Positions 1,319 through 53,199 of a stretch of DNA of 64,000 nucleotides are shown here, one piece after another; position 1 is the first letter of the stretch; every line of letters starts with the position of its first letter. Origin of the DNA: Modicisalibacter luteus DSM 23508 (GTDB taxonomy: Bacteria; Pseudomonadota; Gammaproteobacteria; Pseudomonadales; Halomonadaceae). The DNA is taken from NCBI RefSeq assembly GCF_000378505.1, contig NZ_KB899995.1, positions 124,001-188,000 on the forward strand, written 5' to 3'. A model generated the notes under the pieces. That model was not told where the DNA came from and searched no databases. It was given only the letters and a program-made list of their open reading frames with translations. The position numbers and the translations under genes are program-made.

Positions 1319-2185
1319 ATGAGCCGAATGGCCGATACCTGGATTCTTGCCGCCCAGTGCCCTAGCCGTCTGGGGACGGTAGATGTCGTGACGCGCTTCC
1401 TGAAAGAGCAGCGTTGTTACATCACCGAACTCAATTCCTTCGATGATCGATTGGGTGGCCGCTTTTTTATCCGTGCCGAGTTTCGCCCCGAAGTGGAGGG
1501 ATTCCGTGGGGAGGCGTTTCAGGAGGCCTTCGCGTCGCGTGCCGCGGAGTTCGATATGGACTTTGAGCTGACCCCGCCGGAGAAACGCACGCGGGCCGTT
1601 ATCCTTGTCTCAAAAGCCGATCACTGCTTGAACGACCTGCTGTATCGCTATCGCATTGGGCAATTGCCTCTCGATATTCGTGCCGTCGTTTCCAACCATC
1701 CGGACCTTGAGCCGCTGGCGAAGTGGCATGGCCTGCCTTACTACCATTGTCCGATCACTCCGGAGACCAAGCCGCAGCAGGAGGCGCAGGTAAGGAACAT
1801 CATCGAGGAGACCGAGGCGGAACTGGTCGTATTGGCGCGCTACATGCAGGTGCTGTCACCGGCCATGTGTGAGCTGTTGGCTGGGCGTGCCATCAATATT
1901 CACCATTCTCTTCTGCCTGGGTTCAAGGGCGCCAGGCCCTATCACCAGGCGTACGAGAAGGGCGTCAAGCTCGTCGGCGCGACGGCGCATTATATCAACA
2001 CCGATCTCGATGAGGGGCCGATTATCGCGCAAGGCGTCGAGCCGGTCGATCATGCGCATTATCCGGAGGATATCGTAGCGAAGGGGCGTGATATCGAATG
2101 TCTGACTCTGGCGCGGGCCATTAACTATCACCTGGAACGTCGCGTTTTTCTCCACGCGGGGCGAACAGTGGTGCTGGGTAACTGA
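1319..2185 (+). CDS. purU: Formyltetrahydrofolate deformylase
   Basis: A 288-aa PurU. It hydrolyses 10-formyl-THF to formate and THF. An N-terminal ACT domain (about residues 5-80, WILAAQCPSRLGTVDVVTRFL) precedes the formyltransferase catalytic domain, with the Asn-His pair in INIHHSLLPGFKGARPYHQAYEKGVKLVGATAHY and the Asp in DEGPIIAQGVEPVDH. The ATG at 1319 is preferred because upstream in-frame codons run through the soxG terminator. Its place behind the sox genes suggests it recycles THF loaded with methyl carbon from sarcosine. The formate could feed the fds formate dehydrogenase further along this window. Confidence 0.94.
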   Translation: MSRMADTWILAAQCPSRLGTVDVVTRFLKEQRCYITELNSFDDRLGGRFFIRAEFRPEVEGFRGEAFQEAFASRAAEFDMDFELTPPEKRTRAVILVSKADHCLNDLLYRYRIGQLPLDIRAVVSNHPDLEPLAKWHGLPYYHCPITPETKPQQEAQVRNIIEETEAELVVLARYMQVLSPAMCELLAGRAINIHHSLLPGFKGARPYHQAYEKGVKLVGATAHYINTDLDEGPIIAQGVEPVDHAHYPEDIVAKGRDIECLTLARAINYHLERRVFLHAGRTVVLGN

Positions 2186-2295
2186 TATAGATATTCGGAA
2201 GCTCGTAGCGGCCTGCCATGACTGTCTCCTGGTTGGCGATCAGGAACAGCCTGGCAACTATGACTTTTCAGACAGGACCTAATGGGTATTTGACG

Positions 2296-2328
2296 CATCA
2301 CGCCGCTGAAGAGGCCAGCGGCGTGATG
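2296..2328 (-). terminator. Stem-loop downstream of the betaine-binding protein gene
   Basis: A 13-bp perfect inverted repeat (arms 2296-2308 and 2316-2328, 7-base loop) just past the 3' end of the minus-strand binding-protein gene. There is no real U-tract on either side, so termination efficiency is uncertain. It could also stop read-through from purU on the other strand. Confidence 0.6.
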
Positions 2329-2348
2329 TATCTGAGTTGGTCGAGCAG

Positions 2349-3227
2349 CTATGAAGATGTTGCCGTTTCCGGGATCCACTCGCTCACGATTTCAGGATTG
2401 TCTTCGACCCACTGCTTGGCGTTCTGATAAGGATCTGACCCTTCTTTCTGGTTCATTAGCATTACCTCACCGAGTTCCTTTGGGGTCCACTCGAAATTGT
2501 CGAGGATGGCGTAAGCTTCGGGCATATCCTCTTCGAGACCCTGTCGGACAATAGTATGAATCTGTTCGGCACCACCAAAGGCATTTTTGGGGTCTTCCAG
2601 GTATTTCAGATCCCAGCGGGCAAACATCCAATGGGGCGTCCAACCGGTCACGACGATCTCTTCGTTATTCTTGATCGCCGCTTCCAGGGCGGCAGTCATC
2701 GTGGCGCCACTACCACTTTGTAAGTTGATATCCAGGCCATACTCCTCGATAGCTTCCTCAGTCACGCCCATCATGCCGGCACCGGGGTCGATACCTACGA
2801 TCTTGCCGCCTAACTCGTCGCTATGCGTATTGATATCGCTAATGCTATCAAGCGAGGAGTTTTTCGGTACGACCAGACCCAGTTTGGTCCCGTCCAGGTT
2901 AGCGCCGAAATCCTCTACTTGGTCGCCTACGCGCCCGTAGTAATCGGCATGCGTCGTTGGTAGCCAAGCAGTGGTAATTGCGTCGGCATCTTGAGTTGCC
3001 AGCGCCTGCCACATGACAGCAGCCGAGAGAGAGGTGAGCTCGACGTTATAGCCTGCTTTCTCCAGCACGGCCCGCATAACATTGGTCGAGGCAACGGCGT
3101 CAGACCACTCGACATAAGCCAGGTTGACCGTGCCCTTTTCTTGCGCCTGCGCCACTCCGGACATGACACCTGCGCTTGCCAGAAGCATGAATGAAGTAAT
3201 TTTGACGATAGGTTTGAAGGAAAACAC
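2349..3227 (-). CDS. Glycine betaine/proline-betaine-type ABC substrate-binding protein (OpuAC family)
   Basis: A 292-aa periplasmic binding protein. An N-terminal signal peptide (about residues 1-28, ending AQAQ) is followed by an OpuAC/ProX-type domain. Its Trp-rich segments (VEWSDA, TAWLPTTHADYYG, GWTPHWMFARWDLKYLEDP) are the usual source of the aromatic cage for quaternary amines. The start is a GTG preceded by GGGGAC. No permease or ATPase gene is adjacent, so this is an orphan binding protein. Between the sarcosine oxidase operon and an amino acid catabolic island, a role in betaine, dimethylglycine or proline-betaine capture is likely, but the exact ligand is not visible. Confidence 0.85.
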   Translation of the reverse strand: MFSFKPIVKITSFMLLASAGVMSGVAQAQEKGTVNLAYVEWSDAVASTNVMRAVLEKAGYNVELTSLSAAVMWQALATQDADAITTAWLPTTHADYYGRVGDQVEDFGANLDGTKLGLVVPKNSSLDSISDINTHSDELGGKIVGIDPGAGMMGVTEEAIEEYGLDINLQSGSGATMTAALEAAIKNNEEIVVTGWTPHWMFARWDLKYLEDPKNAFGGAEQIHTIVRQGLEEDMPEAYAILDNFEWTPKELGEVMLMNQKEGSDPYQNAKQWVEDNPEIVSEWIPETATSS

Positions 3228-49880: not shown

Positions 49881-50005
49881 CGCTGATGTCTGTTGGCAGC
49901 TATTGAGCCAGGTAGACGCCCGATCAACCGAGCCAGCGTGGTATGCAACACAGGGGCAACTTGGCGGGACTGCGCTGGTAGGCCGGATTACGCTTACTAT
50001 CGTTG

Positions 50006-50034
50006 ATCTCTTACATGGCCACATAACATAGGTT
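50006..50034 (+). promoter_or_regulatory. Promoter/activator site of the first CsrB-like RNA
   Basis: ATCTCTTACA (50006-50015) and ACATAGGTT (50026-50034), 10 bases apart. The same two boxes with the same 10-base spacing lie before the second RNA. GATCTCTTACA equals the right half of the UvrY/SirA inverted repeat known upstream of enterobacterial csrB. Confidence 0.6.
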
Positions 50035-50040
50035 GAATAA

Positions 50041-50294
50041 TAAGCCAGCCATGTCTGCCAGACTGCTTTTCGTCGAGCAAAGGAAGGCTCAGCAAGGAAG
50101 ATTGAGCCAGGAAGGCTCTGCAGCACCCCAAGGATGCATGGACAGGATGTCTGTGTTGGGACTCAAGGAAGATGGGCCAGGATGGCTCTGGTGTCACCCA
50201 AGGAAGCGCGGGCAAGAAGCCGGCGATGGTTTGATTCAAGGAAGACGGCGCTAGAAGCGCAAACCCGGTCATCATTGGCCGGGTTTATTTATTT
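50041..50294 (+). ncRNA. CsrB/RsmZ-type CsrA-sequestering small RNA, copy 1
   Basis: A non-coding transcript of about 250 nt. The start is estimated from the promoter boxes. There are eleven GGA motifs between 50082 and 50242 (50082, 50096, 50110, 50132, 50140, 50145, 50159, 50167, 50180, 50202, 50240), many in AAGGAAG or CAGGATG form and flanked by short complementary bases, so they sit in hairpin loops or linkers. A strong terminator ends it. Such RNAs bind several CsrA/RsmA dimers and relieve translational repression. No conserved ORF overlaps it. Confidence 0.85.
50261..50294 (+). terminator. Intrinsic terminator of CsrB-like RNA 1
   Basis: A 10-bp stem with one G-U pair (AAACCCGGTC at 50261-50270, GGCCGGGTTT at 50277-50286), followed by TTTATTTATTT. 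Confidence 0.88.
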
Positions 50295-50405
50295 CCGGTC
50301 GAGATAGCCTGATTCCTGGGTTATCACAGAATTACCGATGCCCTTCATTCTGCCTCCCGCATCAGTGCGAGTAAGGCGCGTTATCGCGCATAAAGCGGAG
50401 GATTG

Positions 50406-50765
50406 TTATCTCTCTTCCTCGTCAATCGGGTTATTGATGCGTTCGACGGTGACCCGGTGGTGGCTCATGTGGGCCATGGCCGTTGCTCCGCTTTTCGCTT
50501 CCGCTTCGGCGTCTTCCAGCGTGCGTGCTTTCAATTCGTATTCGAGGGTTTCGCCGTCCACGTTGAAGGTCGCTGAGTAGCCACCCGCTTTTCGGCACGC
50601 CACGGCAGCACGGCGGCTAAGCTCGCGGTCAGCCTGTGCCCACTGGTTGATTAGCTCAGCCGGTGCGCCGTCGCCATCGTTATCCAGCATGTCGATGCGG
50701 TCGCTCAGGTCATCTGCCAGGGCGCGCAGTTCGTCATCACTCAAGCTTTCAGGGCATTTAGTCAT
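50406..50765 (-). CDS. 119-aa acidic protein, paralogue of the protein at 51719
   Basis: Function unknown. The N-terminus (LSDDELRALADDLSDRIDMLD) is an acidic helical stretch. The second half (GGYSATFNVDGETLEYELKARTLEDAEAEAKSGATAMAHM) looks like a small alpha/beta domain. ATG 50765 has GGAGG upstream. It converges with CsrB-like RNA 1. The paralogue is the same length and shares the DELR-L-D-L, R-LSRR, GGY-A and LEDAEAEA-SGA pattern. Confidence 0.75.
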   Translation of the reverse strand: MTKCPESLSDDELRALADDLSDRIDMLDNDGDGAPAELINQWAQADRELSRRAAVACRKAGGYSATFNVDGETLEYELKARTLEDAEAEAKSGATAMAHMSHHRVTVERINNPIDEEER

Positions 50766-51010
50766 TGATGGGCCTCCAGGCGTGTAAGTTTCAAGCCTAT
50801 GCCATAACGGTAGGCATGATGCGTTCGTCGCGGTAGGCGGACAGGCGGTAGGATAGGTGTGCATGTCGGCATCGCCTCACAGGGGAGGCTTGTGAGCACG
50901 GTCTCGGGACGCCTCCAGCACTTTGGTGCCTGCCTAACCTTTCCAGTCCAGCATCGAGCAATGTAAACCGCTTATCAGGCGTACTAGCTAAACGATAAAC
51001 AGGAGATGTT

Positions 51011-51550
51011 ATGTCAAGGTTATGTGGGGCTGCGCGCTCGGTGCTAATCCTTGTCGACTTTCAGGAAGGCCTGTTGCCTGTCATTCAGGATGGCGAAGCT
51101 GTTGTCGAGCGCGCGGTGCTGCTCGCGAAAGCGGGAAAAGAATTGGGAGTCCCTATCCTGGGAACCGAGCAGAATCCTGAAGGCCTCGGAGCTAACCATC
51201 CTCAGATTCGTCAGCTAAGCGACCAAACCTTCGCTAAGACGTATTTCGATGCCTGCAGCCAGCCCGGCTTTTTATCCTACCTCGAGCCTCACCGAGATGA
51301 ACTGATTATTGCTGGCTGCGAAGCTCATGTTTGTGTGCTGCAGACCACCCTTAGTCTGATCGAACACGGCTACCGCGTCAGGCTGGTGGCAGATGCCATT
51401 GGCTCACGGCGTTCATCGGATAGGGAGGTGGCGATAGCTAGAGCCGGCGCTGCCGGTGCAACAGTGGTGACAAGCGAAATGGTGATTTTCGAATGGATGC
51501 GTCATAGCGGTCATCCATCGTTTCGGTCAGTGCTGGCGTTGGTGAAGTAG
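51011..51550 (+). CDS. Isochorismatase-family cysteine hydrolase
   Basis: A 179-aa hydrolase with the catalytic triad Asp16 (LILVDFQEGLL), Lys76 (TFAKTYFDA) and Cys108 (AGCEAHVCVLQT). It is closest in style to the YcaC/hydrolase group rather than true isochorismatase. Its place between the two paralogous 119-aa proteins and the two sRNAs may be incidental. The RBS AGGAG is clear. The substrate is unknown. Confidence 0.85.
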   Translation: MSRLCGAARSVLILVDFQEGLLPVIQDGEAVVERAVLLAKAGKELGVPILGTEQNPEGLGANHPQIRQLSDQTFAKTYFDACSQPGFLSYLEPHRDELIIAGCEAHVCVLQTTLSLIEHGYRVRLVADAIGSRRSSDREVAIARAGAAGATVVTSEMVIFEWMRHSGHPSFRSVLALVK

Positions 51551-51718
51551 GGCGACCAGTGCCCCTCCTGCCCAGCAGCTTCCTGGTGCAGTCGGTATGC
51601 CGGCATCAAGGCTAAACTGAAAAGTGGATGCAAGCCATGATGGTTAAGCGTGAGTGACCCTGGGGGACGTTGTGCTGCCCTTGCAAAGGTCGCAAAGATA
51701 CTTTCTGAGGTTCCAGCC

Positions 51719-52078
51719 ATGAGCAACCGCTACGAAGACCTGTCTCTCGACGAGCTGCGCGTCTTGCATGACGAACTGGGTGATGAAATAGACCTGTTCG
51801 GTACCGAATCCGCATCCGATGATCTGCTGGAAAAGGAACATCAGGTGGGCCGAGAGATCTCCCGCCGTGAAGCTGACGAGGTTCGACGGGTCGGAGGGTA
51901 TGCAGCAGAGCTGGTCGTTGTGGAAGATGGCCAGGCGGTAGATCGATTCGAGTACGCACTGAAGGCAGAGAACCAGGAAGACGCCGAGGCGGAAGCCCGG
52001 TCAGGGGCTGGATCGATGGCATCGATAACCGGCCACGACGTGCGTGTGGAGGCTATCAAGGGGCCGCTGGTGGACTGA
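51719..52078 (+). CDS. 119-aa acidic protein, paralogue of the protein at 50406
   Basis: Function unknown. It reads MSNRYEDLSLDELRVLHDELGDE, then REISRREADEVRRVGGYAAELVVVED, then NQEDAEAEARSGAGSMASI. Length and layout match the minus-strand paralogue. ATG 51719 has TGAGG upstream. It lies about 85 bases before the estimated start of CsrB-like RNA 2, on the same strand. Confidence 0.75.
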   Translation: MSNRYEDLSLDELRVLHDELGDEIDLFGTESASDDLLEKEHQVGREISRREADEVRRVGGYAAELVVVEDGQAVDRFEYALKAENQEDAEAEARSGAGSMASITGHDVRVEAIKGPLVD

Positions 52079-52128
52079 TGGGCTGGCTCGACTGAACATT
52101 CGTCTTAATCGTATGCGTCGTGGCGGCA

Positions 52129-52157
52129 ATCTCTTACACGTTTGAGGCACATAGGTT
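52129..52157 (+). promoter_or_regulatory. Promoter/activator site of the second CsrB-like RNA
   Basis: ATCTCTTACA (52129-52138) and ACATAGGTT (52149-52157), 10 bases apart, identical in sequence and spacing to the boxes upstream of RNA 1. The bases between and around them differ, so this looks like selection rather than a recent copy. Confidence 0.6.
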
Positions 52158-52163
52158 AGTACG

Positions 52164-52335
52164 AGGGTCACAATACCTGCGTATCATGAGACCTGTAGAG
52201 CAAGGATGCTCAAGCAAGGAAGACCGAGTACATGGATGACTCAAGGCACCAAGGATGCACGGGCAGGAAGCCTGTGGTGGTAGCAAGGAGTGCAGTGCAA
52301 GATAGCCCGGCCCGAGTGGCCGGGCTTTTCTTTTT
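52164..52335 (+). ncRNA. CsrB/RsmZ-type CsrA-sequestering small RNA, copy 2
   Basis: A non-coding transcript of about 170 nt. Six GGA motifs (52204, 52218, 52234, 52253, 52266, 52287) occur mainly as CAAGGATG, CAAGGAAG and CAGGAAG, flanked by short complements such as GCA/TGC and GGC/GCC. An intrinsic terminator ends it. It is shorter, with fewer sites, than RNA 1, like RsmY/RsmX versus CsrB. Confidence 0.82.
52304..52335 (+). terminator. Intrinsic terminator of CsrB-like RNA 2
   Basis: A 9-bp GC-rich stem (AGCCCGGCC at 52304-52312, GGCCGGGCT at 52318-52326) followed by TTTCTTTTT. Confidence 0.9.
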
Positions 52336-52455
52336 GCACAGCACCCGCTTCCGGTTCACTTCGCTCTATGCTTTGCACGAGTCGGTGAGCGTCAACTTGG
52401 GCTGGCCCTCGTTCCTCCTCGAGGCCAGTAGCTTCACCTCCCGATCAGGTAAGAC

Positions 52456-53199
52456 TCATGCTGCATCGCCCCCTTCCAGATGAAGGTAGAGAGGGTCGAA
52501 CTCGCCCGCTACCGTCAACTTCTCCCAATCAGGGATGGTCACCTGGGTTCTCTTGGTCTGGATCAGCCCATCGGCACGAAGCGCCTGTAGCACTCGGTTC
52601 ACATGGACAGAGCTGGTACCAATCACGTCTGCCAGTTCAGCCTGGGTAATTGGCAAATCGAAGAAGCCGTCCTCAACAAGCCCTACTGCCTCTAGGCGCA
52701 TCAGGAACTCGCAGAGAAGATGGGCCATCCGGGTGTAGGCCTCGCGCCGCCCGATATTGAGCAGCCACTCACGGAAGATCGAGGCGTCTACCAGCGTCTC
52801 GCGCCAGAAGGCAGCGGTAAGGCGAGGATAGTGTTCACACACGCGGCGCAAATCCTCATGCTGGATGAACCCGACCGTGCAGGGGCTGATCGAGGCAATG
52901 CTGTTGTCCATGACCTTTAGGTGCAGGCTTTGCAGGTCCGGGATGTCTCCGGGGACATGCAGGGCCATGATCTGGCGCTTGCCCTCGGAAGTCAGCTTGT
53001 AGACACAGGTGAAACCCTCGAGGACCAGGCAGCACTGGGACGGGCGGTCGCCGATACGCACGATGTCCTGATCATCCTTGAGGCTTATGACCTGTATTGG
53101 CAAGTCCCGGAGCGCCTGCTTCTCCTCGTCGGAGAGAGTGAAGATGCTTTCCAGCTTGCGAATCATCAGAATGTTGGGGAAGTGGGGGTCTGCGGTCAT
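52456..53199 (-). CDS. Crp/Fnr-family transcriptional regulator
   Basis: A 247-aa regulator. A cyclic-nucleotide-type sensor domain (about 30-130, VRIGDRPSQCCLVLEGFTCVYKLTSEGKRQIMALHVPGDIPDLQSLH) is followed by a Crp HTH (DLPITQAELADVIGTSSVHVNRVLQALRADGLIQ). There is no Fnr-type N-terminal Cys cluster, so this is not an oxygen-sensing FNR. It is divergent from the zinc-peptidase-like gene, with about 230 bp between. Targets are not visible. Confidence 0.88.
   Translation of the reverse strand: MTADPHFPNILMIRKLESIFTLSDEEKQALRDLPIQVISLKDDQDIVRIGDRPSQCCLVLEGFTCVYKLTSEGKRQIMALHVPGDIPDLQSLHLKVMDNSIASISPCTVGFIQHEDLRRVCEHYPRLTAAFWRETLVDASIFREWLLNIGRREAYTRMAHLLCEFLMRLEAVGLVEDGFFDLPITQAELADVIGTSSVHVNRVLQALRADGLIQTKRTQVTIPDWEKLTVAGEFDPLYLHLEGGDAA

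Follow-up and report, generated by a model that had tools for sequence, protein, structure and literature searches.

Do R1 and R2, two GGA-rich non-coding stretches of the Modicisalibacter luteus DSM 23508 genome, encode small RNAs (sRNAs) of the Csr/Rsm type, and do they form a pair of their own? A preliminary description of the 64-kb stretch of DNA that contains them (the window, contig NZ_KB899995.1) took them for two CsrB/RsmZ-type RNAs titrating CsrA, and proposed a doubled carbon-storage or secondary-metabolism switch. Here we find that R1 and R2 look like genuine small RNAs that would soak up the global regulator CsrA, and that they are very probably members of a large Csr/Rsm-type array of CsrA sponges, with about 19 predicted genes in a genome that carries three csrA genes. 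This assessment is based on sequence, covariation, terminators, shared promoter elements, copy number and gene linkage, from which transcription, CsrA binding and activation by GacA are inferred. The features of the locus are listed in Table 1.

R1 and R2 are intergenic, lie 2.1 kb apart on the same strand, and have their own predicted promoters and intrinsic terminators, which at the sequence level is the arrangement of the Csr/Rsm sRNA class. A recount of the GGA motifs agrees with the numbers given before, and the strong intrinsic terminators claimed for both stretches are borne out, each stem-loop being followed by a T-run. Terminator-like sites number five in 2.8 kb (2.2 expected from shuffles), the stems of R1 and R2 being the longest. 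The GGA density of R1 is unique, as all counting windows with at least 11 GGA on either strand of the 64 kb fall on R1 (a fraction of 0.00018). With starts set from the -10-like boxes, the predicted transcripts are shorter than the 250 and 170 nt first suggested, and the claimed start at 50041 is about 30 nt too early.

The unit shared by these RNAs, in a model built from five of them, consists of an AGGA-loop hairpin, a CCAAGGATGC linker, a second AGGA-loop hairpin and a CAAGGAAG linker. Multiple GGA motifs are thereby present in both RNAs, several of them in hairpin loops on conserved stems, as in other Csr/Rsm sRNAs. GGA motifs have a mean unpaired probability of 0.76 (R1) and 0.74 (R2), whereas other GG triplets reach 0.18 and 0.12, and over the 76 related loci described below the values are 0.70 (n=544) and 0.27 (n=1012). 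Two of the 11 GGA in R1 (50140 and 50159) and two of the six in R2 (52218 and 52287) fall below 0.5, so a position in loops or linkers is true of most GGA motifs but not all. The minimum-free-energy folds show no unusual stability (z -0.96 for R1 and -1.69 for R2), and covariation is therefore preferred as evidence. In the six founding rows the covariation score is 0.39 compared with 0.23 in shuffles, and also exceeds slid controls. In 63 aligned modules 94.8% of cells pair, two-sided changes occur in 11 of 11 pairs, and the score is 0.66 (0.28 shuffled, at most 0.15 slid), a result that leans towards the structure because the alignment was fitted to it. A clean internal duplication of R1 was considered and rejected; its modules a and b align in part only, so that two modules are claimed and not a proven duplication.

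Relatives were sought in 121 genomes of Halomonadaceae and in 14 genomes of the genus. Both R1 and R2 are preceded by the gapped element ATCTCTTACA-N10-ACATAGGTT, which has these two matches in the window (0.00 expected from 100 shuffles). Allowing one mismatch, it occurs five times in the 121 genomes (three in the M. luteus genome, one in a congener, one in another genus; one match for the element read backwards), and all five matches precede GGA-rich stretches with terminators. A first covariance model, built from R1, R2 and three relatives found by the promoter element, detects 20 modules in the M. luteus genome (E ≤ 0.01) and has matches in 56 of the 121 genomes. A second model, refined from 63 modules, detects 82 modules in 10 of the 14 genus genomes (E ≤ 0.01), merging into 76 loci: 19 in M. 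luteus, 15 in Modicisalibacter xianhensis CGMCC 1.6848, 14 in Halomonas sp. McH1-25, and 7, 6, 6, 4, 3, 1 and 1 in the others. At E ≤ 1e-3 the top three genomes hold 19, 14 and 13 loci. A terminator follows within 200 nt at 69 of the 76 loci, compared with six for antisense upstream controls and none for shuffled ones. In an order-wide draw of 293 genomes, at least 10 have a match at E ≤ 1e-4, at least nine of these being Halomonadaceae; these counts are floors, as strict filters were used and at most 15 candidates were scored per genome.

The predicted RNAs of M. luteus measure roughly 133-263 nt and contain 5-15 GGA each (146 in total). RNAs with several modules are R1, C32:6737, one in G114 (C27), and a four-module RNA in G104. 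By eye, the C32 RNA (L051 6737-6940, minus strand, two modules) resembles two sRNA genes fused with loss of the first terminator; the four-module RNA is in L142 (G104:C35). Among weaker candidates, two 18.1-bit matches, C4:124440 (20.0 bits) and C5:118918 (19.6 bits) were taken as false, while C1:8868 (21.2 bits) is Csr-like by eye and stands outside the 19. A locus from a metagenome-assembled genome labelled Poseidoniales (L090) fitted the DNA pattern without matching the model, and was taken as a chance match.

A simple sigma-70 scan finds no promoter, and the promoter was approached by comparing loci. The 40 of 76 loci in which the half box ATCTCTTACA matches at 7 or more of 10 positions at the usual distance give the consensus TGTCGGCA-ATCTCTTACA-N8-TAAC-N4-GTTA-N23-yAnAnT. 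Since these loci were chosen by the half box, the half box is there by construction; the palindrome TAAC-N4-GTTA and the -10-like box are not, and the spacing of the palindrome to both neighbours is fixed. If yAnAnT is the -10 element, the GacA/UvrY-type box would be centred at -64.5 (it is near -65 in Pseudomonas) and the palindrome at -41.5. Over all 76 loci, a half box at 8 or more of 10 positions is found upstream of 44 (antisense, 11), and a palindrome at 7 or more of 8 positions upstream of 45 (antisense, 4). Within M. luteus the GacA-type box is present at 14 of the 19 loci and the palindrome, at the same cut-off, at nine. Perfect TGTAAG-N6-CTTACA sites are present at C12:20972, C1:193073 and C4:48904 of this genome, about 20 nt further upstream than usual. 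The palindrome has the form of Crp/Fnr-type sites (FNR TTGAT-N4-ATCAA, PrfA TTAAC-N4-GTTAA), and a 5-4-5 palindrome centred at -41.5, as in class II promoters, is found as a family-level consensus, with a degenerate copy at R2 and a start site placed from the -10-like box.

The partners that such RNAs require are encoded in the genome. M. luteus has a GacA/UvrY ortholog (290.5 bits; NCBI cut-off 280), so that R1 and R2 combine an upstream GacA/UvrY-type site with a GacA ortholog in the genome, as the Csr/Rsm class does. It also has three csrA genes with invariant core residues, and the copy tested matches solved CsrA/RsmE chains. A single csrA match is the rule in the family, holding for 114 of the 121 genomes. 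One genome lacks any and six exceed one, three of them through weak or partial matches; the clear cases are M. luteus (3), M. xianhensis (2) and G023 (2). McH1-25, searched apart, has three. All four of these genomes also hold many sponge modules. In M. luteus a tandem pair of extra csrA genes diverges from a sponge sRNA across an interval that contains a perfect GacA-type box (L052, Table 1), and csrA is likewise divergent to an sRNA in McH1-25 (C23, two tandem csrA) and M. xianhensis (C28, one csrA). In another genome the GacA/UvrY gene itself (C10:131640-132269) has a sponge sRNA at a distance of about 420 bp (L128, G019:C10:130100-132300). All 10 genomes of genus g16 (G015, G036, G050 and others) lack a GacA/UvrY match at E ≤ 1e-60 and have one csrA each; Csr RNAs there, if any, would need another activator.

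Several results weigh against an array of CsrA sponges. The Rfam models for CsrB, RsmX, RsmY and RsmZ accept neither R1 nor R2. A search of the 64 kb returns nothing at the gathering cut-offs, and the matches at E ≤ 10, from which two lower-scoring overlapping matches of the same clan are omitted, include none to the CsrC, RsmX, RsmY or RsmZ models for either stretch and nothing Csr-like for R2. R1 aligns with CsrB (RF00018) from the first to the last model position at 33.2 bits, below the gathering score of 71; this cut-off is passed in none of the 14 genus genomes, four of which have sub-threshold matches, and a plasmid BLAST with R1 gave no match. By this cut-off R1 and R2 fall outside RF00018. 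The identity first proposed, read as Csr/Rsm-type RNAs that titrate CsrA, is supported by the covarying AGGA-loop hairpins, the terminators, the GacA-type box, the genes for CsrA and for a GacA/UvrY ortholog, and the sub-threshold CsrB match of R1. The GGA count of R2 is not exceptional (6 GGA in 109 nt recur at six other plus-strand places and in 100 minus-strand counting windows), so that its case stands on promoter, hairpins and relatives. The second model has no match in four of the 14 genus genomes, E exceeds 1e-3 at three of the 76 loci (one each in M. xianhensis, McH1-25 and G051), seven loci have no called terminator (two of them in M. luteus), and on the founding rows one of five measures, further pair types, is not above shuffles. 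A GacA-type box is missing from five of the 19 M. luteus loci, and the palindrome reaches 7/8 at only nine, so that decay or another mode of activation is possible for some copies. As for csrA, G022 and G028 have extra csrA-like matches and no sRNA match, and G014, G039 and G104 have 8-9 sponge modules with a single csrA.

Three other accounts of R1 and R2 are best judged with these results in view. Their short distance, common strand and common promoter element would suit an ordinary two-copy CsrB/RsmX-like pair arising by local tandem duplication, and tandem rsmX pairs are known in Pseudomonas (passages of PMC7911923). The 17 further loci in the genome make this very improbable, as do the closest copies among the 76 loci, which are C24:15856 for R1 and a McH1-25 copy together with C9:77438 for R2, and not each other; the proposed doubled switch is hence wrong in both scale and descent. 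A dispersed repeat family, or decaying copies most of which do not function as sponges, would explain the poor promoters or missing terminator calls of some copies (C17:9430, C5:254150) and the fusion of some modules in twos or more (C32:6737, G104 C35). We consider it improbable, because compensatory changes and syntenic copies, several of which have the same neighbours in M. xianhensis or McH1-25 (flanks about 80% identical), indicate selection and exclude a recent burst within one strain, and because copies diverge widely while hairpins, promoter and terminator persist. That the stretches are small protein genes or mRNA leaders, with GGA acting as Shine-Dalgarno-like sequence, is suggested by short open reading frames (ORFs) crossing R1 (50033-50254, 73 aa, TTG start) and R2 (52232-52483), but the terminators lie between genes at both stretches and the hairpins covary, leaving this the least credible account of all.

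The array of CsrA sponges being preferred, the question becomes what reads its palindrome. The gene convergent with R2 encodes a Crp/Fnr-type regulator (Table 1), paralogs of which adjoin three further sRNAs of the same genome. An HTH_Crp_2 match is found no more than 1 kb from at least 20 of the 76 genus loci, at least four of which are among the 19 of M. luteus. With 10-29 HTH_Crp_2 matches per genome, the chance expectation for the genus loci is 0.49 and nearer 1 with all matches counted; 96 matches among those listed were typed, weak ones and most of those from sRNA-free genomes being set aside. Thirty-four proteins were picked from the typed matches and 33 placed in a tree (one below 200 aa was dropped; the root is for drawing only and a long-branch warning applies), in which all 15 sRNA-adjacent proteins fall among the 27 with a VHxxR-type helix and none among the six FNR-like ones. 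The exact palindrome is present upstream of six of the 34 Crp-type genes and in none of 34 coding controls, and seven other palindromes score 0 or 1. Because VHxxR-clade genes are so strongly linked to sRNA loci, we propose regulators of this clade as the ones binding TAAC-N4-GTTA, an assignment that is possible if somewhat doubtful. A single TAAC-N4-GTTA also separates a Crp/Fnr-type gene from the sponge sRNA divergent to it (L140, G104:C21, 40899-40910), and could serve both. Loss of GacA boxes from sponges beside Crp genes was considered, and is a tendency only; among the matches listed, 10 of the 20 near loci and 38 of the 56 far loci have the box.

That the array is real and its palindrome is read by some other factor (a second GacA-type site, another regulator, or a substitute for the -35 element), the regulator genes having merely travelled along, has close to an even chance. 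The sequence GTTA is similar to CTTA in the GacA half site. Modules of genus g11 keep the palindrome at an unchanged distance in 16 of 17 cases (an uncontrolled count), while none of the 17 half boxes reaches 8/10, two modules having a 9/12 match to the full box about 145 nt upstream, although a GacA ortholog is present. Many of the 20 Crp-linked loci are orthologs and not independent, so that the linkage could reflect joint duplication, and further neighbours (small genes and KGG-repeat genes, see below) are paralogous between loci as well. Of the six palindromes found ahead of Crp-type genes, two (G114 C30 and G104 C21) belong to promoters of adjacent sRNAs, and the remaining four come from one group of close relatives. 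Binding by a Crp/Fnr-type protein is favored by the 5-4-5 symmetry and the -41.5 position, which match known Crp/Fnr sites, and by the palindrome without a GacA-type box being commoner beside Crp-type genes (6/20 against 6/56, among the matches listed).

The usual view of Csr sponge RNAs is that GacA has one or a few of them as redundant outputs. In the arrangement proposed here, AGGA-loop hairpins would alternate with single-stranded CAAGGAWG linkers in short untranslated RNAs, so that one RNA would bind several CsrA dimers and, by doing so, would release the mRNAs that CsrA targets. The sponge genes, scattered across the genome, would for the most part be driven through a GacA/UvrY-type box near -65, and about half of them may also respond through the palindrome at the class II activator position. 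With such an array, several signals could each contribute a dose of sponge RNA to a common CsrA pool. A more specific version is that VHxxR-clade Crp/Fnr regulators, several encoded beside their own sponge, each activate sponge genes via the -41.5 palindrome and partly replace GacA, that many signals are summed as RNA dose on a multiplied CsrA pool, and that the divergent csrA-sponge pair is a feedback unit; we put this forward tentatively, and as a whole it is rather unlikely. The family, as predicted, is unusual in its number, in the co-multiplied csrA, and in its second promoter site with Crp/Fnr-linked loci. Some 19 divergent copies together with extra csrA and linked regulators would make a natural system in which to ask why sponges multiply (dose, separate inputs, or matching of different CsrA proteins). 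The Rfam CsrB model misses these RNAs, for which a concrete site and a regulator class are now offered.

Table 1. Positions of R1, R2, their signals and associated genes (window numbering, except L052, numbered within its own segment)
Feature	Position	Strand	Remarks
R1	50071..50294	+	predicted CsrA-titrating sRNA, ~224 nt, 11 GGA; hairpin modules 50092-50162 and 50163-50246
R1 GacA/UvrY-type box TATCGTTGATCTCTTACA	49998..50015	+	right half perfect, left degenerate, 8/12 in full; centre ~-64.5
R1 palindrome TAAC-ATAG-GTTG	50024..50035	+	7/8 of consensus TAAC-N4-GTTA; centre ~-41.5
R1 -10-like hexamer CAGACT	50059..50064	+	inferred
R1 intrinsic terminator stem-loop	50261..50286	+	T-run follows
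R2	52194..52335	+	predicted CsrA-titrating sRNA, ~142 nt, 6 GGA; single module 52214-52293
R2 GacA/UvrY-type box TGGCGGCAATCTCTTACA	52121..52138	+	right half perfect, left degenerate, 9/12 in full
R2 degenerate palindrome GCAC-ATAG-GTTA	52147..52158	+	6/8, at ~-41.5
R2 -10-like hexamer TATCAT	52182..52187	+	inferred
R2 intrinsic terminator stem-loop	52304..52326	+	T-run follows
Crp/Fnr-type regulator gene	52456..53199	-	cNMP_binding and HTH_Crp_2 domains; convergent with R2
L052 sRNA (G000:C12:19000-23000)	1973-2047	-	
L052 csrA ORF	2170-2454	+	
L052 csrA ORF	2824-3069	+	

Other neighbours recur as well. Three paralogous small genes, 45-53% identical, stand beside the R1, R2 and C32 sRNAs (window 50406-50864, minus strand; window 51650-52078, plus strand; L051 4330-4821, minus strand), and possibly were co-duplicated with them; neither of the window genes matches a Pfam family. 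Beside the sponge sRNAs C1:193073 and C4:49487 are genes for two proteins that are 79% identical (L053 4547-4900, plus strand; L056 2328-2741, minus strand), which we take to be members of a KGG-repeat stress-type family.

In a literature search covering titles and the beginnings of abstracts, with most subscription journals outside its coverage, Csr-type sponge RNAs of Halomonadaceae were not found described. CsrA was modelled in Halomonas hydrothermalis in a paper whose main text does not contain 'CsrB' (PMC12889724), and in passages of another, Halomonas is mentioned only for an engineered PrrF1 (PMC13414033). The closest known RNAs are RsmX, RsmY and RsmZ of Pseudomonas and Azotobacter, which like those of M. 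luteus are about 100-250 nt long, alternate AGGA hairpins and linkers, end in a terminator, have a GacA-type box, and are multicopy in some species. They differ in number, with up to seven Rsm sRNAs in P. syringae (PMC7911923, PMC7600136) and RsmZ1-7 plus RsmY in A. vinelandii (PMC8988225, PMC4824345), according to passages of these papers; the about 19 loci of M. luteus are more than twice the largest published count found in the sources covered. Passages on the Pseudomonas and Azotobacter sRNAs contain neither the palindrome nor a Crp/Fnr linkage. CsrB/RsmB shares the repeated CAGGAUG hairpins, but R1 scores below the threshold of its model and R2 is not listed. P. amygdali pv. phaseolicola likewise has several CsrA/RsmA proteins and several sponge sRNAs, seven of each in the part of PMC7600136 covered, whereas M. 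luteus has three csrA and about 19 sRNAs, with extra csrA beside an sRNA; numbers of sRNAs and proteins are described as not correlated across genomes in passages of that paper and as correlated in passages of PMC7911923. In Yersinia a Crp-family protein similarly feeds into the levels of the Csr RNAs CsrB and CsrC (excerpts of PMC3523269); there it is Crp with cyclic AMP, acting largely through UvrY, while the regulators proposed for M. luteus would belong to another Crp/Fnr clade, act at -41.5 and be encoded partly by neighbouring genes. Within the same bacterial family, GacS/GacA of Halomonas anticariensis controls quorum sensing, exopolysaccharide and biofilm, and a table in the covered part of PMC7366521 listed its sRNA partner in 2020 as 'Unknown'; the sponge RNAs described here are candidates for such a partner in related species of the family.

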